DNA of 64,000 nucleotides, taken from contig JAFLCN010000012.1 in NCBI GenBank assembly GCA_017303555.1, positions 62,001 through 126,000 of the forward strand, given 5' to 3'. Source of the DNA: Planctomycetota bacterium. Lineage in GTDB: Bacteria; Planctomycetota; Phycisphaerae; Phycisphaerales; UBA1924. The notes beneath the pieces are model-generated. The model saw only the letters and a list, made by a program, of their open reading frames with translations, was not told where the DNA came from and made no database searches. Below are positions 16,934-27,111 of the stretch, piece by piece. Within the stretch, counting starts at the first letter, position 1. Each line of letters opens with the position of its first letter. The position numbers were made by a program, and so were the translations under genes.

Positions 16934-17914
16934 ATGGAGCAGGTCCTCGATCCAGAATCCGGTGAGACTTCGAGCGGCGAGTTTCTCGCCCCCGAATCCT
17001 CCTCCCGCTGGCTGCTTCGCCTCGCGCGTCGAGCGCTGCTGGTCGGACTGGTCCTCTCTTTGCTGGTGCACATTGTGGGCCTGGCGATCTCCGCCCGGGT
17101 GTTCTATGGCATGGGCGGATCGGCCTCGATGGGCGCCGATGAAACGCCCGGGCTCGCGCTGACACGCGGGCCCGAACTCTCCGACCTGATGTCCGGTTCG
17201 ATCGAGATCTCCGCACCCGCATCGGGCGATCTCGCGGCGGAACTGAAGGAAGTGAATCCCAATCAGCCGCTGGATGTGCCGCGCGATCCATCCCTCTCGC
17301 AGTCTGAGAATCTGGAAGGGTCGGGTTCGTTGTCCGGCGCGGGCAATGTCTCCACCGATCAGGGGATGGGTGAAGGACTGGGTTTGGGCGGTGGCGGCGG
17401 TGGCGCATCGTTCTTCGGTGTCGAAGCGACGGGGAGCCGCTTTGTGTTCATCGTGGACGTCTCGGGCTCGATGAGCCTGGGCGGGAAGATCGATGCGCTC
17501 CGGGGGCAACTGACCCGTTCGATTCAGAACCTTGTCGAGACCTCGACGTTCGCGGTGTTCACGTTCTCGGATGATGCGGCGCCACTGGGGAACGCGCGCG
17601 ACTGGACTCAGGCGATCGAGGAGCGCAAACGCTGGGCGAGAAAAATCATCGGGACGCTCACTCCCGGGGGCGCGACCGTTCCCATGAACGCTTTTCGTGC
17701 CGCGTTCCGTCTTCGGCCCAGGCCCGACGCGATCTATTTCATGACAGACGGCGAGTTCGATCCTTCGGTTGCGGATGAGATCGCGCGATTGAACACGAGT
17801 CGTATCCCGATCCACTGCATCGCGTTCACCAGCCCCGAATCCGAGCAGCAGATGCGAAGGATCGCAACACAATCACGCGGCACATACACTTTCGTTCCGG
17901 GGGCGAGGCCGTGA
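16934..17914 (+). CDS. Membrane-anchored vWA-domain protein with TonB/TolA-like N-terminal helix
   Basis: A 326-residue protein. One membrane helix (about residues 33-57) contains S42 and H46 in LSLLVHIVGL, the S-x3-H spacing seen in the TonB/TolA anchor that contacts ExbB/TolQ. A Gly/Ser-rich linker follows (about 125-158). Residues 168-322 form a vWA domain with an intact MIDAS: D175-V-S-G-S in FIVDVSGSM, T248 in GGATVP, and D272 in MTDGEFD. The basic stretch before the helix predicts a cytoplasmic N-terminus, placing the vWA domain in the periplasm. It is the first gene of an operon with an ExbB and two ExbD genes; the next gene overlaps by 4 bases. ATG 16934 is chosen because upstream in-frame GTGs lie in non-conserved sequence. 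Confidence 0.85.
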   Translation: MEQVLDPESGETSSGEFLAPESSSRWLLRLARRALLVGLVLSLLVHIVGLAISARVFYGMGGSASMGADETPGLALTRGPELSDLMSGSIEISAPASGDLAAELKEVNPNQPLDVPRDPSLSQSENLEGSGSLSGAGNVSTDQGMGEGLGLGGGGGGASFFGVEATGSRFVFIVDVSGSMSLGGKIDALRGQLTRSIQNLVETSTFAVFTFSDDAAPLGNARDWTQAIEERKRWARKIIGTLTPGGATVPMNAFRAAFRLRPRPDAIYFMTDGEFDPSVADEIARLNTSRIPIHCIAFTSPESEQQMRRIATQSRGTYTFVPGARP

Positions 17915-19086
17915 AACGCTCGATCGCCGCGGGAACCTTGTCTTTTCTTGCGGTGTTTGCCCACGCCGAGGAGTCGTACGCGACTCTGCGGAACGGCGCA
18001 CGGGTCGCGATCACCGACGTTTCGGCTGCGGGCATCGCGCTGGCGGCCGATCGGGGAAAAGGCCCGAAACTCGAATCGCTTTCACAGGTCCGTTCGGTCG
18101 AAGGTCCGCTCCAGGCCAAGTTCGAAGCGAACCGCGGACTCGCGAACGACTTGCGCCGGGCATCGACTCGGCTTTCCCGTGGCGACGAGGCGGGCGCGGA
18201 ACCGCTCTTTGAAAAGCTCTGGACGAGCTCTTCGGGCGTGCCCGGCCCGACACGCGCCGAGATCGCGGCAGGGCTCGCGGCGTGCCGAATCCGACGGGGC
18301 GCGAGCGCGACCGCAATCGAACCCTGGGTCGAATGGATCCGCCGTACCGGCGAGCTCTCGCCGGAGCAGCTTGAGAACCAGCGGACCGTTCTCGGGATTT
18401 CCGAGCCCGGCTCGTACTGGATCGATGCGATCCCTCCCGTCTGGTCCGATTCCACACCGGTGCGCACGCTCGCTGCCGCGTCGGTTGCCACGAACCAAGC
18501 CGGTGGCGCGCACCCGTCCGGCGACGACATCGCCCTGATCTACACCGTCGCGGCCAGGCGCGATTCTGGAATGCCGTGGCAGATCGACCCCGCCAAAGCG
18601 GTCAAGAGCCCGACATGGGCCAACCTCGCCGGCGAGATGGTTCTCGCGGAGTCCGACGCACCCGAGGTGCGGGCCGAAGCGCGTCAGCGATTGCTGGCGC
18701 GCCTCGGATCGGACGTCCCGCTTTGGAAGCAGATGTGGATCCGGCTGGCGGTGGGCCGTTCGCTCCTTCATGAATCCGATTCAGACGATCGGCGTGCTGG
18801 CGTCCTGAACCTGCTCTGGATCGCGTCAAGGCCGGAGGGCACGCCGTCGATCGTCACGCAGGCGATCGCCAGCGCGACAAAGGCCCTCGCGGCGCTCTCG
18901 GATTACGAGGGTGCCCGGTCGCTCCTGGCGGATCTCGAGAAGCGTTTTCCCGATGATCCGATTCTCGATTCCGCTGGGCTCGCTTCGGTACGGCGATCGT
19001 TGCCGCAACCCGTGACCCCGGCTCAAACCCTGCCGGCACCCCTCACGGCACCTTCCGACTCCGCTTCAAACAAGGACGAACGATGA
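17911..19086 (+). CDS. Secreted hypothetical protein of the vWA/ExbBD operon
   Basis: A 391-residue protein not recognised as a named family. The signal peptide is residues 1-19 (cleavage after AHA). A short beta-rich segment, ATLRNGARVAITDVSAAGIALA, is followed by a mostly helical body of Ala/Glu/Arg-rich repeats that look TPR-like. The end is Pro/Thr-rich. Likely periplasmic. Its GTG start overlaps the vWA stop by 4 bases (GTGA), and its own stop overlaps the next ATG by 4 bases, so translation is probably coupled with the motor genes. Confidence 0.75.
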   Translation: MKRSIAAGTLSFLAVFAHAEESYATLRNGARVAITDVSAAGIALAADRGKGPKLESLSQVRSVEGPLQAKFEANRGLANDLRRASTRLSRGDEAGAEPLFEKLWTSSSGVPGPTRAEIAAGLAACRIRRGASATAIEPWVEWIRRTGELSPEQLENQRTVLGISEPGSYWIDAIPPVWSDSTPVRTLAAASVATNQAGGAHPSGDDIALIYTVAARRDSGMPWQIDPAKAVKSPTWANLAGEMVLAESDAPEVRAEARQRLLARLGSDVPLWKQMWIRLAVGRSLLHESDSDDRRAGVLNLLWIASRPEGTPSIVTQAIASATKALAALSDYEGARSLLADLEKRFPDDPILDSAGLASVRRSLPQPVTPAQTLPAPLTAPSDSASNKDER

Positions 19087-19832
19087 GACTTCTCGGTCAG
19101 ATCCAGTGCCTGCTTGCGGACGCTTCGGCGCCGGCGACCCGCAAGTCGCTCTTCGAGTACATCCACGCGGGCGGTTTCATCGGCTACACGCTTGTGGTGC
19201 TCTCGGTGCTGGCGGTGGCGCTGCTCATTGCGCACTTGCTGAAGGTAAGGCTTTCTGTCATGGCACCGACCGAGGTGATTCTCGGTTTGGAGGATCGGCT
19301 CCGGAATGCCGACACGGCCGACGCGATCGAGTTCTGCCGGCGCGACGAGAACAAGTGCTTCCTCGCGAACACTTTCGCGGCGGCGCTCACCCGCTGTTCG
19401 CGTTCCAGCTTCGGCCTCCTCGAATTGCGCTCGGCGCTCGAGGATGCCGGTTCCAAAGAGGTCGAGAAGCTCATCCGGACCACCGACGGCATCGCGATCA
19501 TCGCGGCGATCGGACCGATGATGGGGCTGCTCGGCACGACCATCGGCATGATCGGTGCATTCGCGACGATCGGACAGCTCGAGGGCGCGGCACGATCGAA
19601 CGAACTCTCGAGCTACATGTCGCTCGCGCTGGTAACGACCGCGCAGGGATTGCTCGTCGCGATTCCCTGCACGGTGCTCTACACAATTCTCAGACGCCGC
19701 GTCGAACGGCTCGCAGCGGAAGTGGGGGACGTGGTTGAAGATCTTGCCGCGCTGTTGAACGCGCCAGGAACCGAGCGCCGTCCGGCTCGGCCAGCGGCAC
19801 GAGAACACGCCGAGCCCGCGGGAATCGCCTGA
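19083..19832 (+). CDS. MotA/TolQ/ExbB-family proton channel protein
   Basis: A 249-residue inner-membrane protein with three predicted helices, about residues 30-52, 136-161 and 178-203. The conserved pore segments are visible: GPMMGLLGTTIGMIGAF (TM2), and MSLALVTTAQGLLVAIPC (TM3) with the polar Thr pair T185-T186. The family forms a pentamer around an ExbD/TolR dimer and converts proton flow into movement of a partner protein. The ATG overlaps the upstream stop by 4 bases; two ExbD-type genes follow. Whether it serves TonB-like transport, Tol-like envelope work or a new function is not settled by sequence. Confidence 0.93.
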   Translation: MRLLGQIQCLLADASAPATRKSLFEYIHAGGFIGYTLVVLSVLAVALLIAHLLKVRLSVMAPTEVILGLEDRLRNADTADAIEFCRRDENKCFLANTFAAALTRCSRSSFGLLELRSALEDAGSKEVEKLIRTTDGIAIIAAIGPMMGLLGTTIGMIGAFATIGQLEGAARSNELSSYMSLALVTTAQGLLVAIPCTVLYTILRRRVERLAAEVGDVVEDLAALLNAPGTERRPARPAAREHAEPAGIA

Positions 19833-19856
19833 ACCCGCCAGACCAGATCCGGCCCC

Positions 19857-20324
19857 ATGCGCTTCAATCGAAACAACGACATGCCCGAAGCCGGTTTCGA
19901 CATCACTTCGATGATCGACGTCGTTTTGCTGTTGACCATCTTCTTCATGATGTCGTCGCAGTTCTCTCGCATCTCCCAGCGGAACCTTGATCTGCCCCGC
20001 CAGAAAGGCGACGCGAATGCACGGCCCGATGCCAGCAGCGATGCCGCCGTCGTCATCGATCTGGAAACCGACGGCCGGCTTTCTGTCGCCGGACGCTCCT
20101 ATCCGCTCGAGCGGCTCGCCACGCTGGTCGCGATCGACCGGCAGAAAATGGAACGCTCGGGCGGAATCCTCGACGTCATCGTCCGGGCCGATCGCGCAAC
20201 CCCGGCACCGCAGCTCCAACGGCTCGCCGCGGCGTTGAGCCGCGAAGGCGTCGCGACGTGGCGGCTTGCGACGAGCGGTGAAACCTCGCACAGCACCCAG
20301 CGCGGTGGCGGGGGGCTGCCGTGA
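19857..20324 (+). CDS. ExbD/TolR-family protein 1
   Basis: A 155-residue single-pass protein. A short cytoplasmic N-terminus leads into a helix (about 17-37) holding the conserved membrane aspartate, D21 in ITSMIDVVLLLTIFFM, the proton-carrying residue of the family. The periplasmic part has the usual alternating alpha/beta pattern (VVIDLETDGRLSVAGRSYPLE, ILDVIVRADRATPAPQLQRL). It starts 24 bases after exbB and overlaps the second ExbD gene by 4 bases. Confidence 0.9.
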   Translation: MRFNRNNDMPEAGFDITSMIDVVLLLTIFFMMSSQFSRISQRNLDLPRQKGDANARPDASSDAAVVIDLETDGRLSVAGRSYPLERLATLVAIDRQKMERSGGILDVIVRADRATPAPQLQRLAAALSREGVATWRLATSGETSHSTQRGGGGLP

Positions 20325-20740
20325 ATTTCCGGAAGTCCAAGTCCCGCGGAATCATCGCAATCCCGCGACTGGCTCTGGTTGCGTTCATCGATATCGTGCT
20401 GTTCCTGCTGCTCTACCTGATGCTCGCGGGCTCTCTTGCGCCCGCAGAGTCGCGGATTTCCGCCGGCCTGGAGAAGCCCGCGGCGGCCGGCGGCAACGCT
20501 CCCGATCTTCCCCCGGTTTCGCTGAAGGTGATTCGCGCGGGAGAAACGGTCGTGTTCCGAATCGGGCAGCGGAGCCTGGCGAGCGTGGAGGCCGTGCGTC
20601 TGGCGCTCTCCGAATCACCCAAGCAGGGTGGAGTCATCGTGCGGTCCGACGCGAGCGCTTTGGTCGGTGATATCGCGGCGGCAATGCAGGCCGCGAAGGA
20701 TGCCGGTTTCGATCGAGTGAGCTATGCCCCCACGCCGTAA
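20321..20740 (+). CDS. ExbD/TolR-family protein 2
   Basis: A 139-residue paralogue of the preceding gene, clearly diverged. Its N-terminal helix (about 17-38) contains D24 in LVAFIDIVLFLLLYLML, so the key acidic residue is kept. The periplasmic domain ends GGVIVRSDASALVGDIAAAMQAAKDAGFDRVSYA, close to the ExbD consensus. A pair of ExbD proteins with one ExbB suggests a heterodimeric rotor. The GTG start overlaps the ExbD1 stop; the stop overlaps the next gene by 17 bases. Confidence 0.9.
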   Translation: MNFRKSKSRGIIAIPRLALVAFIDIVLFLLLYLMLAGSLAPAESRISAGLEKPAAAGGNAPDLPPVSLKVIRAGETVVFRIGQRSLASVEAVRLALSESPKQGGVIVRSDASALVGDIAAAMQAAKDAGFDRVSYAPTP

Positions 20741-23399
20741 CCATCTCGTCGCGATGCTCTGCTGCCTGCTCGGGTGGGCCGCGAACGGTGCGCCGACGCC
20801 CGATCGCGGGCTCTACGACGAGGCGCTCGACGAGTACCTCTCCCGGCGCGGGCTGCTCACGATGCGGATCTACACGCTCGAGAAATTGCTGCCGAGCGCG
20901 ACGGGAGCCGAGCGTTCGCGTGTGCTCTCGGAACTCGCCGGCGCGTACGAGGTGCTTCTCGAGACTCTGCCAGCGGAGAAGCGCGCGGTGCTGCGGGAGC
21001 GATCGCGTGTGTTGCTGAAGGACAATCCACGCCCGGAACTCGCCGCGCTCCGGATCAATCTTCTGAAGGCCGAGTACCTGGCTGCGGAACAGGTCGCGGA
21101 ACGGCAGAGGCTCCGGCTGGCGACCGAGACCGATGCCTCGGAGGCGATCGCCTCGCTGAAGCGGCTCGCAGTCGAGTTCGCGGAGATCGCTCAGGCCGCC
21201 GGGGCCAAGGCCCGGACGCTCGATGTGCAGGAACAGGCGCGCGGCGACGCGAGTATCGCGGAAGAGACCGAACTCAAGCGTCAATTGGCGGACGCACGGC
21301 GCATCAGGTCGCTCGCGAGCTACTACGCGGGCTGGAGCAATTGCTACATCGCGCAGCTCACGAAAGATCGGGAAGCCGCGGGAGAGGCGCTGCTCCAGTT
21401 CGGCGCGTTGCTGAACGCTCAGGACCGAAAGCCCCCAACGCTCGATCGGCTTCCCAAGTCGCTGCTGGTACACGAGCACGTGGCCCGGGCCTGCCTCGGC
21501 GTTGCGGTCTGTCTCTCGATTCTGGGCAACGATGCCGAAGCGCTCCGATGGTTGGATGATTTGTCAACGGTCGATGCAGTTCCCGCGGCGGTGCGTTCCC
21601 AGTTGCTGACCAGACGCATCACGGTGCTCGGCGCCGGATCACGATGGAATGAGCTCGCGTCGTGGGTGCAGCGGGCGCGGGCGCCCCACGGGAAGGTCAC
21701 CTCGCCCCTCGATGCCGCCGACGCTGTCCTGCTTGCGGTCACCGCCTTTGAAGGGGTTGACGGCCCTGCGCCGGGCGGCGAGAGTGCACGAACCGAGCTG
21801 GGTCGGCTGGCGCTCGCGGATCTCATCGCACGCGGACAGACTTCCTACGTGGTGGCGCTGGCCAAAAGGTTCGGCACCGGCGCGCTGGCTTCGGACGGGT
21901 TTGTGGCGCAGTATGTGCGGGCACTGCAGGCCTTTGATTCGGCCCGTGCGCGTCATCGTGCCGCCGGACGCGAGAACGATCCGGCCCGAAGCGCGGAGAT
22001 TGTGGTGGCGTATCGCGAGGCGGCGGCGCTCTTTGGTGCCGCGGCTTCGGCGCAGGATGCATCGGCTTTCGAGAGCGACGCGACCAAGGCCGCACTCAAC
22101 GCGGGGATGGCCTTGTTCTACGCGGGTGACTTTGTCCCGGCAGCCGACCAGTTCGCGCGAGTCGCGCAGCGAGCCAGAGACGCCGACGCCAAGCGCGATG
22201 CGGTGTGGTTCGAGGTCGTCGCGCTCGATCGCGCACTCGAGGCCGGACGCAAGGACATTGCCGATCGGCGCGACGGTGCCGCGGCTCTGTATGTGTCAAC
22301 CTACCCGAAGACCGAACAGGCGGCCCGGCTGCTGCTCAAGCGGGCCGGCATCGGCACCTTCTCCGATGCAGCGGTCGTCGAGTCTCTGCTGAGCGTTCCG
22401 GAGGATTCGCCGATCCGGCACGAAGCGCACGTGCAGGCATCCTCGTTGCTCTTTAAGCTCGCGCGGGGTGCGCCCGCTTCGGAACGCGACGAAGCGTTCC
22501 TCCGATTTCTCGTTGTGTCGGACAAGGTGTACCCGTCGGAGCGAGACGCGGCGGTCGCCGCCGATGGGTCGCGTCGCGAAGCGCTCGCCGGGCGCGTCCT
22601 GTTGCTCGCCCGACAGCAGCTCGAAGCGGCGCTCTCGCTCACTTCGCCCGATACGGCCCGGGCTCAGAAACTACTGGCCGAGATTCCGCACTTCGCGGAA
22701 CTCTGCGGCGTGCCGATCACCGATCTTTCCGATGAGCTGGCGTACCGGCGTGTACAACTGGCGGTGGCATCCGGCGATGAGACCGCAATAGATGCCGCGA
22801 TTGCATCCCTGAAGGAATCATCGTCTCCGTTTGCTCAGGGCGCGAGAATGCTGGCGCTCCGGCGGGCGATCGAAGCATCGCGTGCGGCGCCCAGCAGCAT
22901 CGAGGCCTCACGAAGAGTCGTCGCCGTCGGCGCGCCGGTGGTCGCCGGGCTGGACGACCAGAAGCAGTTTGACACCCGGGCGAACGCGATTCGCGATGAG
23001 GTGGCGGGCGCCGCGGTGTTGGTGTACGGGCAGAGCAACGAGACCGCGCTCCGTGACCTCGCTCTCCGCATTGATAAGGGAATGTACGAGCGGGGCGGTC
23101 GATTCACGTCCAGCCTCCGAAGGCTCGCGGAGTTGAGCGAGCAAATCGGCGATGATGCGACCGCGCTCGAGTGTTGGAAACTGCTCGTGTCCGGGCTGCG
23201 AGAGGAACAACCCGCCTGGTTTGAGGCACGCTATCGCTCCATTGTGCTGATGGCGAAGGTTGACATCGCCGGCGCCCGCGATGCGTTCCGCCTCTTCGAG
23301 CTTTCGCATCCGGATTTCGGCCCCCCGGCCTTTGCCCCGCGATTCCAGCAACTGCGTGAGCGGCTTCTGCCCGCCCCGGCAAAAGGGGGCGGCCCATGA
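20724..23399 (+). CDS. Large secreted helical-repeat protein of the vWA/ExbBD operon
   Basis: An 891-residue protein without a recognised named domain. It has a signal peptide (residues about 8-23, cleavage after NGA) and then an almost entirely alpha-helical, Ala/Arg/Glu-rich sequence with TPR-like periodicity (for example ALNAGMALFYAGDFVPAADQ). It is probably a periplasmic scaffold. The start overlaps exbD2 by 17 bases; an alternative ATG at 20754 would remove the overlap and keep the signal peptide. The stop overlaps the next gene by 4 bases. A TPR-like periplasmic protein beside an ExbBD motor recalls YbgF/CpoB beside TolQR, but no direct homology is claimed. Confidence 0.8.
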   Translation: MPPRRNHLVAMLCCLLGWAANGAPTPDRGLYDEALDEYLSRRGLLTMRIYTLEKLLPSATGAERSRVLSELAGAYEVLLETLPAEKRAVLRERSRVLLKDNPRPELAALRINLLKAEYLAAEQVAERQRLRLATETDASEAIASLKRLAVEFAEIAQAAGAKARTLDVQEQARGDASIAEETELKRQLADARRIRSLASYYAGWSNCYIAQLTKDREAAGEALLQFGALLNAQDRKPPTLDRLPKSLLVHEHVARACLGVAVCLSILGNDAEALRWLDDLSTVDAVPAAVRSQLLTRRITVLGAGSRWNELASWVQRARAPHGKVTSPLDAADAVLLAVTAFEGVDGPAPGGESARTELGRLALADLIARGQTSYVVALAKRFGTGALASDGFVAQYVRALQAFDSARARHRAAGRENDPARSAEIVVAYREAAALFGAAASAQDASAFESDATKAALNAGMALFYAGDFVPAADQFARVAQRARDADAKRDAVWFEVVALDRALEAGRKDIADRRDGAAALYVSTYPKTEQAARLLLKRAGIGTFSDAAVVESLLSVPEDSPIRHEAHVQASSLLFKLARGAPASERDEAFLRFLVVSDKVYPSERDAAVAADGSRREALAGRVLLLARQQLEAALSLTSPDTARAQKLLAEIPHFAELCGVPITDLSDELAYRRVQLAVASGDETAIDAAIASLKESSSPFAQGARMLALRRAIEASRAAPSSIEASRRVVAVGAPVVAGLDDQKQFDTRANAIRDEVAGAAVLVYGQSNETALRDLALRIDKGMYERGGRFTSSLRRLAELSEQIGDDATALECWKLLVSGLREEQPAWFEARYRSIVLMAKVDIAGARDAFRLFELSHPDFGPPAFAPRFQQLRERLLPAPAKGGGP

Positions 23400-26167
23400 A
23401 CAGCCATGGTTCCTCGCGTGACCGGCGCACCGCACGGTTCGACCCCGTGCCGATTTTCTTCGGACCGACCGCTCCCGGTCCGTTCGCGCTGCTCGGCCTT
23501 GATGTCGGGGAGTACGACGCGCCCGCAATCTTCCAGGCCCTCCACGCGCGGCTTGCTCGACTCGCGGCCCATCCTCAGGCGGCAACTCCGGCCGGAGAGG
23601 AAGTCACGCTCGCGCTGCATGCCGCGGCGGCGCAGCTCTGCGATCCTGCTATCCGCCGCGTGCTGATCCACACTTGGAACGCCGATGCCGCATCCGTGCT
23701 CCCGACGCAACCGATGCCGCTCGGTGAGATCGTGATGGATTCGAATGCCGGCGCGATCGAGCGCGACCTGCACTTGGCGGTCGGACTGAGCGGCGGTTGG
23801 AACTCGCGGGCAATGGAGCGGCTTGCCATCGCCTGCCGCTCTCGAGGTGTCGATCTCGACGCAGCGGTTCGCGGCTTGCAATGGCGGTCGGTGCCGAATC
23901 GATCGCGCCAAACGCGCGATGAAGCGAATCGACAGCAGACTGCGGCCCCGCGGCCGACGGATGCACCGCGCACGCGACGCGGCAGGCGCAGAAGCGGCGC
24001 GCACGCCGCGAAACAGTCGCACGCGAGCATGCGGAGCGGCCTTCGAGATGCGGTGATACTCGCCGTCCTCGGCGCCACCGGAGTGCTTTGCCTTGCCGTC
24101 GCGATCATCTTCCTCTCTCCCGGCGGGCGTCCGCCTCTTCCTGTGCAGCCTGCGGCGGGCGAGTCTGCCGTTGCCGCTCCGTTGCCGTTCGCTCCCTCCG
24201 CTCCGCCTCAATTGGTGGAGAACGAAAGAGCGAATCCGGATGAACTCGAGAGCGGCGACCCCCGCATCATGACGCAGGAGCTCGTCGGCGCGACACAGGA
24301 CCTCGCGACCGATGCCGGAGCGGCGCACGCGCGCTTTGCCCGGGCATATCGCGCATTCGGGCGCAGTTGGCCGCTGCTCAATCCGGACGAAGTCTCCGCC
24401 GTCGTGTCGGCGATTGTCGATTTCTGCTACGGCGCATCGCGGATCGAGACGCCCACAGCATCGACGATCACGGCGCCGCTTCAAGGCAAACTGGCATCGG
24501 GGCGCTTCGCGGTTCGCGAAGCCGCTGCCGCCGCGAGCATCTCCGGTCGGCTCCTCTCGGAGCGGGAGCTTCCCCGCGCGTTTCTCGATCAGATCGAGGC
24601 GGGCGCGACGCTGGGTGACGACGGACCGAAGGTTGAGCCAAGCTCCGCGTTCCGTGTCGGGCTCGAACGAAACCTGATCAGCATCGCCGGCCAGATCGCG
24701 AGGGCCGCCCCGGCTTCTTCCGAATCGTGGAAGGGTTTCATCGAAGTTCGCGATGCCGCTTTGGGCGACCGTCTGCCCGCGCGCGATGTTTCAACGCTCA
24801 ACGCGATCGAGATGCTGCTCCGGAGCACCTCCCTTCCGCCCCGGGATCTTGTCCGATCCATCGGCGTCTTGGCTGCCGCGCTGAGCTGGCATCCATCCGA
24901 CGAGCTTCGCATGGCAATTTCCGGTTGGCTTGAGGACACGACCGTCCCCGCGGAACTGCTCACTGAGATAACCAGGGCAATGGTCGCCAGCAGTGCGCCC
25001 GGCGTGGATTCAACCATGGTTCTCGCGCCAGGCGCGGGGCCGAACGCGCGCAGCGAGCTTCGCGAGCGCCTCGCGCAGGTCTGGCAGGGCAAGTCGATCT
25101 CGACCGAGCGGGAGGACTTCGCGAACTGGACCACGCGGGCATCCGAACTGCTCGACATCCAGGCCGGTTCGGATGCCGAAACGCTCGCACTCGCCGCTCG
25201 GATCTCGCGGACCATCCTCGCCCTTGATGCCCTTCGCGCCGGCAAGGTCGACCGCGCGAACGAGATAATGGCCGCTTCGGGCGCCGACACTCCGACAACT
25301 CCGGCATCGCAACCACCGGCAGCGCTCCCAAAGCCCGATCCGGCTTCCAAAGCGCTCGAATACGCCGCGGCAGGCAATTCCGTTCAGGGGCGGCTGGAGG
25401 CGCTCAAGCAGATCCACGCAGCGAATGCCCCGCCCGACACCCTGCTGGCCGAGTTGCTCGTGACCGAATCGGCGCGGGGCACGCCCGCGGCGATCCGAGA
25501 TTTGGCGCGCACCACCCTCCGCCGGCACGCACTCGAGCCTTCCATTCTCCTCGCCACTCTGCGGGCGTTGCCCTCGATTCCCGAGACCGCCGAGAACGCC
25601 GAATGGGTTGCCGAAGTCGCGGCAGCGGGCACCAAGTGGAGCAAGCGCTCGAAGTGGAAAACGCAGGCGCAGATCGCGCTGCTCGACAGGGCGATCGCGG
25701 TTTTCCCCGCGTCTCAAGCCGAAGCCGCCATCGATCTGGCGGCAAGCGAGCTCGCGACTTCGTGGTTTGAGCGTGTCGGAGATGGTGCCAAGCCGGCTTC
25801 GGACGATCCGAACGCCGCGATCGAATCTCTTGAAGCCGCGATGGCTTCGGCGGCGCGATCCCCTCGAGGAGGGGCGCCGGCGGGATTGAACCCCGCGGAG
25901 ATACGCCGACGCCTTGCCGCACGGAAGGAGATCGCGCCGGGGCCGCTCGAACTCGCTGTGGCGCGCCAGGGCGCGTGCGTGGAATGGACAGCGCTCGGCG
26001 TTGCGCAGGAGCGGCCGGGCGACATCGGCGCGGTGCAGCAGATCATCGAACAGTGGAACACCGCCCGGCGGAAGGCCGGATCCAGCATCGATCAGTTGCT
26101 CGAAGGCGAACGGGCCGTTCTCCGCCTCCAGTTGCTGCGCATCGGCGCGAAGGCGAGGGAATCATGA
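23396..26167 (+). CDS. Large single-pass membrane protein of the vWA/ExbBD operon
   Basis: A 923-residue protein. Residues 30-95 form a helical segment starting PFALLGLDVGEYDAPAIFQAL that resembles the opening of a J-domain-like fold but lacks the HPD motif. A basic linker (about 190-215) precedes a membrane helix at about 219-240 (AVILAVLGATGVLCLAVAIIFL). The rest (about 680 residues) is helical, Ala-rich and probably periplasmic. The basic side before the helix predicts N-in topology. Function unknown. It overlaps both neighbours by 4 bases, so it belongs to the same translational unit as the ExbBD motor. Confidence 0.8.
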   Translation: MNSHGSSRDRRTARFDPVPIFFGPTAPGPFALLGLDVGEYDAPAIFQALHARLARLAAHPQAATPAGEEVTLALHAAAAQLCDPAIRRVLIHTWNADAASVLPTQPMPLGEIVMDSNAGAIERDLHLAVGLSGGWNSRAMERLAIACRSRGVDLDAAVRGLQWRSVPNRSRQTRDEANRQQTAAPRPTDAPRTRRGRRRSGAHAAKQSHASMRSGLRDAVILAVLGATGVLCLAVAIIFLSPGGRPPLPVQPAAGESAVAAPLPFAPSAPPQLVENERANPDELESGDPRIMTQELVGATQDLATDAGAAHARFARAYRAFGRSWPLLNPDEVSAVVSAIVDFCYGASRIETPTASTITAPLQGKLASGRFAVREAAAAASISGRLLSERELPRAFLDQIEAGATLGDDGPKVEPSSAFRVGLERNLISIAGQIARAAPASSESWKGFIEVRDAALGDRLPARDVSTLNAIEMLLRSTSLPPRDLVRSIGVLAAALSWHPSDELRMAISGWLEDTTVPAELLTEITRAMVASSAPGVDSTMVLAPGAGPNARSELRERLAQVWQGKSISTEREDFANWTTRASELLDIQAGSDAETLALAARISRTILALDALRAGKVDRANEIMAASGADTPTTPASQPPAALPKPDPASKALEYAAAGNSVQGRLEALKQIHAANAPPDTLLAELLVTESARGTPAAIRDLARTTLRRHALEPSILLATLRALPSIPETAENAEWVAEVAAAGTKWSKRSKWKTQAQIALLDRAIAVFPASQAEAAIDLAASELATSWFERVGDGAKPASDDPNAAIESLEAAMASAARSPRGGAPAGLNPAEIRRRLAARKEIAPGPLELAVARQGACVEWTALGVAQERPGDIGAVQQIIEQWNTARRKAGSSIDQLLEGERAVLRLQLLRIGAKARES

Positions 26168-27111
26168 AGCGCGCCAGGCTTGTTCTGCTCGCATCCGCTG
26201 CGTTCGCTCTCCCCGCGCTCGCGCAAGACCGCATCATCGAGGGCGGCGAGGCCGGCGCAGCCGCGGCTCCGCCCGTCGTGGCAAGGGCGGTGTTCGATCC
26301 GACCGAGGTGAGCCGGTTGCAAAGCCTGTCACCGGCCGATCCGACCGCGTACCTCGAGCTCGGCGAAGACATTCTGGAATTGCCCGATTCGCACGAGCGG
26401 GTTGAAATGGCGCGTCAGTTATTCGCACGCGCACTCGAGTTTGGCAGGGTTCGTCCGGAGAATCGGCGCACCGCGGCCTCCGCGGCGATCGCGCTCGCTT
26501 CGATGAGCAAGCGCGAGGGAGATCGGCTCTGGCTGCGTTCGGTCGCCGCGATCATCGAGCCTTCGAACGCCGAATTCACAGGCGCCGTTCCGTCGGCACG
26601 CCAGGACCCGCCGGTCGCCGCGGCCCGCGCTTCGCTCTTCCTGACCCAGCTCCGGGCCGGCGCGGGGATTGAAGCCCGCGATTCGCTCGCGGCAAAGGGC
26701 GTGCGCGATGTGCTGACGCGACACGAACGCGAGCTTTCCGCGAACGGCGGAATCTCCGTTCAGCATCTGGAAAACGAGGCCAAAAAATGGCCCTGCACCG
26801 AATGCGCCAGTTCCGGCATCGTCGTCCCGCCTCGCGGGCAGCGCGGACCGGCCAAGCTCTGCCCCGTCTGCGCCGGACAACCGGGAATGAAGCTCAGCGC
26901 CGCTGATCTCGCGGCGCAGCTCCGTCTGCAGCGACGGCTCGCGGGCTCATACTCCGAGCCGTGGGGATCGCTCGCGGCCTCCGAAGGCGCGCCGCCGGCC
27001 CGCGATCCCGACCCGGCGACCGTCGCCTCTTCCCTCGGCGTGGACGCCAGGTTGTCGGTTTGGCGCGACGGTCGCTGGTCGCTTCCCGAGCAATCGCCCA
27101 CTCCGCCCTGA
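26164..27111 (+). CDS. Secreted protein with CxxC-CxxC zinc-finger-like motif
   Basis: A 315-residue protein ending the operon. The signal peptide is residues 1-20 (cleavage after ALA). A helical domain follows (about 45-200). Residues 211-236 carry two CxxC pairs, CTEC and CPVC, 18 residues apart, resembling a zinc ribbon or a single DnaJ-type zinc-finger repeat. No named family is recognised. The ATG overlaps the upstream stop by 4 bases. A CxxC protein in the periplasm could bind metal or form disulfides; this is inference. Confidence 0.78.
   Translation: MKRARLVLLASAAFALPALAQDRIIEGGEAGAAAAPPVVARAVFDPTEVSRLQSLSPADPTAYLELGEDILELPDSHERVEMARQLFARALEFGRVRPENRRTAASAAIALASMSKREGDRLWLRSVAAIIEPSNAEFTGAVPSARQDPPVAAARASLFLTQLRAGAGIEARDSLAAKGVRDVLTRHERELSANGGISVQHLENEAKKWPCTECASSGIVVPPRGQRGPAKLCPVCAGQPGMKLSAADLAAQLRLQRRLAGSYSEPWGSLAASEGAPPARDPDPATVASSLGVDARLSVWRDGRWSLPEQSPTPP

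Follow-up and report, generated by a model that had tools for sequence, protein, structure and literature searches.

Eight open reading frames (ORFs), termed g1 to g8, lie on the forward strand at positions 16934–27111 of the window, the 64,000-nt stretch of DNA that was analyzed. Their coordinates confirm the first-pass annotation, which had described eight same-strand genes with six of the seven junctions overlapping by 4–17 bases, and give successive spacings of −4, −4, +24 (a gap), −4, −17, −4, and −4 nt from g1 to g8. Pfam models assign a vWA domain to g1, MotA_ExbB to g3, and ExbD to both g4 and g5, with a weak TPR match to g2 and no significant match to g6, g7, and g8 of the window. The genes and the features within them are as follows.

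16934..17914, + strand: g1, a bitopic vWA protein of 326 aa and the proposed TonB/TolA-like force transducer (VWA_3, 1.6e-14; one transmembrane segment, TM; conserved order)
17057..17071, + strand: putative motor-docking motif SxxxH in the TM of g1 (S42 and H46; ortholog conservation)
17147..17179, + strand: stretch PGLALTRGPEL after the TM of g1, a candidate motor box/D-box (sequence pattern only; positioned as the TonB D-box, PMC10907165)
17441..17893, + strand: vWA domain of g1 with a complete MIDAS (D175, S177, S179, T248, and D272, each invariant in 51 orthologs)
17911..19086, + strand: g2, a secreted TPR-like protein of 391 aa (weak TPR matches in several family members; conserved position)
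19083..19832, + strand: g3, a channel protein of the ExbB/TolQ/MotA family, 249 aa (MotA_ExbB, 7.1e-25; T152, T185, and T186 invariant)
19857..20324, + strand: g4, the first ExbD/TolR-like protein, ExbD1 (ExbD, 1.5e-16; D21 invariant)
20321..20740, + strand: g5, the second ExbD/TolR-like protein, ExbD2 (ExbD, 4.1e-11; D24 invariant)
20724..23399, + strand: g6, a secreted, all-helical TPR-like solenoid of 891 aa (AlphaFold2 model, TPR matches, Foldseek)
23396..26167, + strand: g7, a bitopic protein of 923 aa with cytosolic J-like and GGWN domains, a TM at residues 216–240, and a periplasmic helical-repeat region (model, hydropathy)
23465..23689, + strand: J-like domain of g7, with HP[Q/E] replacing HPD (profile match to DnaJ J domains in the PDB)
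23732..23917, + strand: GGWN domain of g7, lost together with the motor (profile scores, sequences read)
26164..27111, + strand: g8, a secreted 315-aa protein whose CxxC...CxxC insert is not conserved (joined to the g7 C-terminus in three lineages)

The putative motor is encoded by g3–g5, in which one MotA/TolQ/ExbB protein and two ExbD/TolR proteins with intact key residues had been recognized at the outset. Both the Pfam matches and residue conservation bear this out, as T152, T185, and T186 in the proton path of ExbB are invariant across orthologs and the ExbD aspartates D21 (g4) and D24 (g5) are 100% conserved. NCBIfam equivalog models for TolQ, ExbB, TolR, and ExbD match g3–g5 below their cut-offs, and the motor is thus a relative of the standard Tol and Ton sets rather than one of them. 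Membership in the Zorya defense systems (ZorAB) was rejected, as the weak PADLOC ZorA match reaches 12.7 bits in the shared channel region and g3 has 249 aa, in contrast to the long-tailed ZorA. A second ExbB–ExbD–ExbD set (G000 contig C36:1-5587 in L003 and L123; L105 and L112 in G059) is found near thiL/tsaE-like genes in several genomes and could be a paralogous motor that drives the vWA arm, and a third ExbB–ExbD pair (G000 contig C39, about 104500–108000, in L001 and L122; also L113) sits beside a protein of >1000 aa and BlaI/BlaR-like genes.

The vWA protein g1 is proposed as the TonB/TolA-like arm of the operon. The serine and histidine of its SxxxH motif are invariant in 51 orthologs, whereas the remaining TM and the region preceding the vWA domain are variable; when two ortholog sets are combined, the serine is present in 114 of 115 sequences (one has Thr) and the histidine in all 115. 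By sequence, they are the counterparts of S and H in the docking motif shared by TonB and TolA. The initial statement that the operon contains no TonB or TolA overlooked g1, which carries SxxxH in its TM and has the features of such an arm. Most g1 members also show, by eye, an alternating hydrophobic, beta-strand-like stretch, VEFAVM, after the TM (consensus VEFAVMTxAEL), from which PGLALTRGPEL of the window diverges; the g1 stretch lies at the position of the TonB D-box (PMC10907165) and may represent a D-box or the motor box, the beta-strand predicted after the TM in the vWA transducer class of PMC12204202.

The remaining genes encode helical and secreted proteins, of which the first-pass annotation had counted four as large envelope proteins, a description that does not fit g8 (315 aa) and the TPR-like g2 (391 aa), in whose family several members give weak TPR matches. 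The AlphaFold2 model of g6 (mean pLDDT 89) is an all-helical solenoid of about 41 helices, and up to 10 of 29 g6 orthologs have TPR matches. Fold searches with g6 and g7 returned generic TPR and ARM/HEAT solenoids, and the Foldseek list for g6 is dominated by unrelated TPR solenoids; its rank 32 is the periplasmic scaffold of the Campylobacter flagellar motor (PDB 9hmf), likewise a TPR-type solenoid near a MotA-family motor, which at a TM-score of about 0.2 offers an analogy only.

According to hydropathy, about 215 residues of g7 precede a TM near residue 220, and the model (pLDDT 80) shows the periplasmic part as a helical repeat. Within the cytosolic part, a 19-member profile of residues 24–98 hits J domains of DnaJ in the PDB (E 0.0036, positions 3–67 of 76), and the helices follow the J order in the model; PF00226 reaches a best E of 0.18, in one of 30 members. 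The fold searches gave no J-domain hit, which does not count against the J-like assignment. The histidine of the HPD motif is invariant and the aspartate, which J proteins require for Hsp70 stimulation, is mostly replaced. A second small cytosolic domain is marked by the motif GGWN. With the GGWN profile, TAL effectors matched at E values as low as 1e-20; these matches were discarded, being the sum of many weak 18-residue repeats of which none passes alone.

The product of the last gene, g8, begins with a signal-like sequence. Three lineages (L047, L064, and the pair L084/L085) carry it as a fusion to the g7 C-terminus, an arrangement that supports a periplasmic location of that terminus and contact of g7 with g8. 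Its designation as a CxxC protein had to be abandoned, as the motifs are not conserved and are missing in most of GTDB family f2. In family f4 (L061, L062, L063, L065, L066, and L067), g8 has four CxxC motifs, 11–12 residues apart, and two or none elsewhere.

The order g1–g8 is kept across Phycisphaerales and a recognizable core extends across Planctomycetota. In a sample of 101 genomes of the order, g6 occurs in 53, including (nearly) every genome sampled from f1, the GTDB family of the window, as well as members of f2, f3, and f4, and g7 occurs in 40. The gene order is the same in essentially all Phycisphaerales loci that are uninterrupted by a contig end (∼50 sampled genomes), and the overlap geometry recurs across the order, with −4 at most junctions and −17 or −20 between g5 and g6; the same order with the same overlaps in so many genomes means that the clustering is not due to chance. 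The g1 alignment led to a further 67 non-duplicate loci in named genomes (among them Phycisphaerales and Phycisphaeraceae MAGs and Tepidisphaera), and this second set has the same arrangement. Conservation of the order beyond the source genome, on which the first-pass annotation had staked its proposal, thus holds in both locus sets. Beyond Phycisphaerales, in other families and classes, the core consists of vWA, ExbB, ExbD, ExbD, and a g6-like gene, to which a g2- or g7-like gene is often added.

A large part of this core has been described before. Williams-Jones et al. (2025; PMC12204202), as excerpted, report a class of vWA force transducers with an SHLS-type TM and adjoining TPR, tolQ-like, and paired tolR-like genes, present in Planctomycetes and of unknown function, for which AF3 predicts docking through the same histidine as that of SxxxH in g1. 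Going by these excerpts, the class shares with g1 the inner-membrane-tethered vWA protein, the SxxxH TM, and a disordered linker, and with the operon the adjoining TPR gene, one TolQ-like gene, and two TolR-like genes; the core of vWA transducer, TPR, TolQ-like, and two TolR-like proteins is therefore already known from 2025. The present operon differs from the class as excerpted in that the vWA gene comes first, the conserved set adds g6, g7, and g8, and only the serine and histidine of SHLS are conserved in g1, where H+7 is mostly A (74), S (18), or L (18) and H+11 is variable, so that neither the L nor the second S is conserved; the excerpts set no strict rule for the full motif. What is new is the larger set, comprising the g6 TPR solenoid, the bitopic g7 with its J-like and GGWN domains, and g8, which three lineages have as a g7 fusion; the same excerpts make no mention of DnaJ or a J-domain. 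The second family described there, TPH-vWA, is said in these excerpts to have no exbD and a vWA protein that bears the proton-binding Asp without SHLS (PMC12204202), and membership was rejected on the two ExbD genes and the SxxxH motif found here.

The ExbB–ExbD–ExbD block is absent between g2 and g6 in 17 genomes (four first-set loci and 13 assessable second-set loci). Whole-genome searches located orthologous ExbB (230–281 bits) and ExbD2 (116–158 bits) at another genomic site in eight of them, and in the other nine detected no orthologous motor genome-wide, only paralogs or fragments (ExbB ≤149 bits, ExbD2 ≤49 bits). The g6 tree, in which L210 is counted as block-lacking despite its in-place label and groups with L048 and L051, suggests about two independent motor losses and five relocations. 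The GGWN domain of g7 scores 14.7–55 bits in all eight genomes whose motor is relocated and ≤5.7 bits in all nine genomes lacking the motor, as was also read from the sequences, in a sample of draft MAGs that represents about two independent losses; genome search found no strong GGWN copy elsewhere in the nine. This co-loss links g7 with the motor. GGWN is already divergent, yet recognizable by eye, in L050, L059, L224, and L250, which form the sister group of one loss. Loss of the whole cytosolic part of g7, which three genomes of the first set had suggested, was rejected on the larger set, which usually keeps the J-like part and loses GGWN only.

In the nine genomes without an orthologous motor, the g1 (vWA), g6, g7, and g8 genes persist. 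Loss of the vWA and secreted genes from operons that retain ExbBD, named beforehand as evidence against a functional unit, was not seen, and the opposite was; the proposal of a dedicated motor with envelope partners is accordingly sound as to the conserved partners and too strong as to "dedicated." SxxxH is present in motor-less genomes wherever the g1 N-terminus is intact, and so g1 cannot depend strictly on g3–g5. A paralogous ExbB–ExbD–ExbD set is present in motor-less genomes and probably serves g1 there; in three of the nine, SxxxH is retained with only paralogous motors in sight. These genomes yield two predictions, namely that GGWN, in the cytosolic part of g7, serves the cognate motor and that another ExbBD motor can take over the vWA arm. 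In two motor-less genomes (G022 C4, L115; G032 C114, L120), an ExbB–ExbD–ExbD set lies directly upstream of genes that by eye resemble LolC/E and LolD.

The eight genes appear to encode a proton-powered motor, a TonB-like arm that it moves and that has a vWA domain at its end, and large helical helpers, and we assign a probability of roughly 0.7 to the whole explanation, a proton-driven trans-envelope machine with the vWA arm on an ExbB–ExbD1–ExbD2 motor. The analysis shows the gene content, conservation, motifs, fusion, and co-loss, and from these we infer how such a machine might dock, pull, and engage its substrate, and what physiological role it might have. The g3 ExbB and the g4/g5 ExbD1/ExbD2 pair would form a 5:2-type inner-membrane motor, on which g1 would dock via S42 and H46 of its TM, with the strand following the TM probably held by ExbD. 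The Gly-rich linker of g1 would extend into the periplasm, where the vWA domain may grip a partner via its MIDAS metal site, and the g6 solenoid, g2, and g8 may act as periplasmic partners or scaffold. The membrane-spanning g7 would act with the cognate motor through its cytosolic J-like and GGWN domains and work with g8 through its periplasmic helical region. Such a machine would pull cyclically on the outer envelope.

Planctomycetes possess an outer membrane, and envelope work in this phylum might be powered by such a conserved, proton-driven vWA arm. The operon resembles Tol-Pal (TolQRA-TolB-Pal) in pairing a proton motor with a bitopic SxxxH arm, although this arm ends in a vWA domain and TolA in its own C-terminal domain, and it resembles ExbBD-TonB in its motor, its arm, and the candidate D-box-like strand following the TM, although g1 lacks TonB_C. 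Profile searches of the source genome detected neither TonB_C (PF03544) nor the TonB-receptor plug (PF07715), and sampled genomes of its family are mostly without TonB; TolB_N (PF04052) was found in 0 of 13 genomes, the source genome among them, in a search that included positive controls. Genomes that possess TonB and its receptors (G009, G033, G010, G373, and G216) retain the operon too, and these two results together make the system independent of Ton and incompatible with classical Tol-Pal. Argued from the absence of other systems, outer-membrane maintenance, a Tol-like task, is tentatively the likeliest role. The broader proposal, in which a force machine present throughout the planctomycete phylum stands in for Tol-Pal, the J-like and GGWN domains of g7 control its motor from the cytosol, and its arm can swap motors in evolution, is speculative and doubtful in its full form.

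The vWA arm could instead open an outer-membrane channel for uptake or export, as a Ton-like transport system without TonB. The TonB-like docking motif of g1 fits such a role, as does a source genome devoid of TonB and plug-domain receptors, in which some other energized uptake could be needed; the conserved operon, however, contains no outer-membrane barrel gene, and its coexistence with TonB and receptors in the five genomes named above indicates that the two are not alternatives, which leaves transport unlikely. The AglR-AglQ-AglS motor consists of one ExbB-like and two ExbD-like subunits, and this composition, the sole likeness to the Myxococcus system, would suit a surface-motility or adhesion motor in which a surface adhesin is the partner of the vWA domain, in the manner of Agl-Glt gliding. 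Here, unlike in AglR-AglQ-AglS, an arm with SxxxH and vWA lies inside the operon, and no gliding partners are known. Participation of vWA domains in adhesion, noted in the excerpts of PMC12204202, speaks for this reading, but g1 is tethered to the inner membrane, g2, g6, and g8 look periplasmic, and presence in nearly all sampled f1 members with a phylum-wide core fits housekeeping better, making a gliding-type machine improbable.

A further possibility is a sensor or quality-control device with no mechanical output, in which ion flow through the motor reports the envelope state to the cytosol via the J-like and GGWN domains of g7. The J-like domain and the strict co-loss of GGWN with the motor are consistent with signaling, but g1 has a long linker and a TonB/TolA-like docking motif, both of which suit force transfer, and the HPD aspartate needed for Hsp70 stimulation is mostly missing, so a purely sensory function also seems improbable. 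A chance or lineage-specific cluster with no joint function is scarcely credible, for although the motor block is missing from the operon in 17 genomes, order and overlap geometry are kept in many divergent genomes, and the co-loss and the gene fusion likewise speak against it.

The operon genes also occur in variant forms. Families f5 and f6 of Phycisphaerales have divergent operon versions, with two tandem vWA transducer-like genes in L166 (8659, 9909) and L174 (7651, 8733), and the vWA transducers of family f73 (L157, 8818–9849; L158, 8747–9787) have an extra N-terminal CxxC...CPxC zinc-ribbon-like stretch. Two records labeled as cyanobacterial, Cyanobacteria bacterium CYA N2_1 (L227) and Leptolyngbya sp. 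PLA1 (L248), contain the full planctomycete operon, fall within the Phycisphaerales tree, and are probably mislabeled MAGs.
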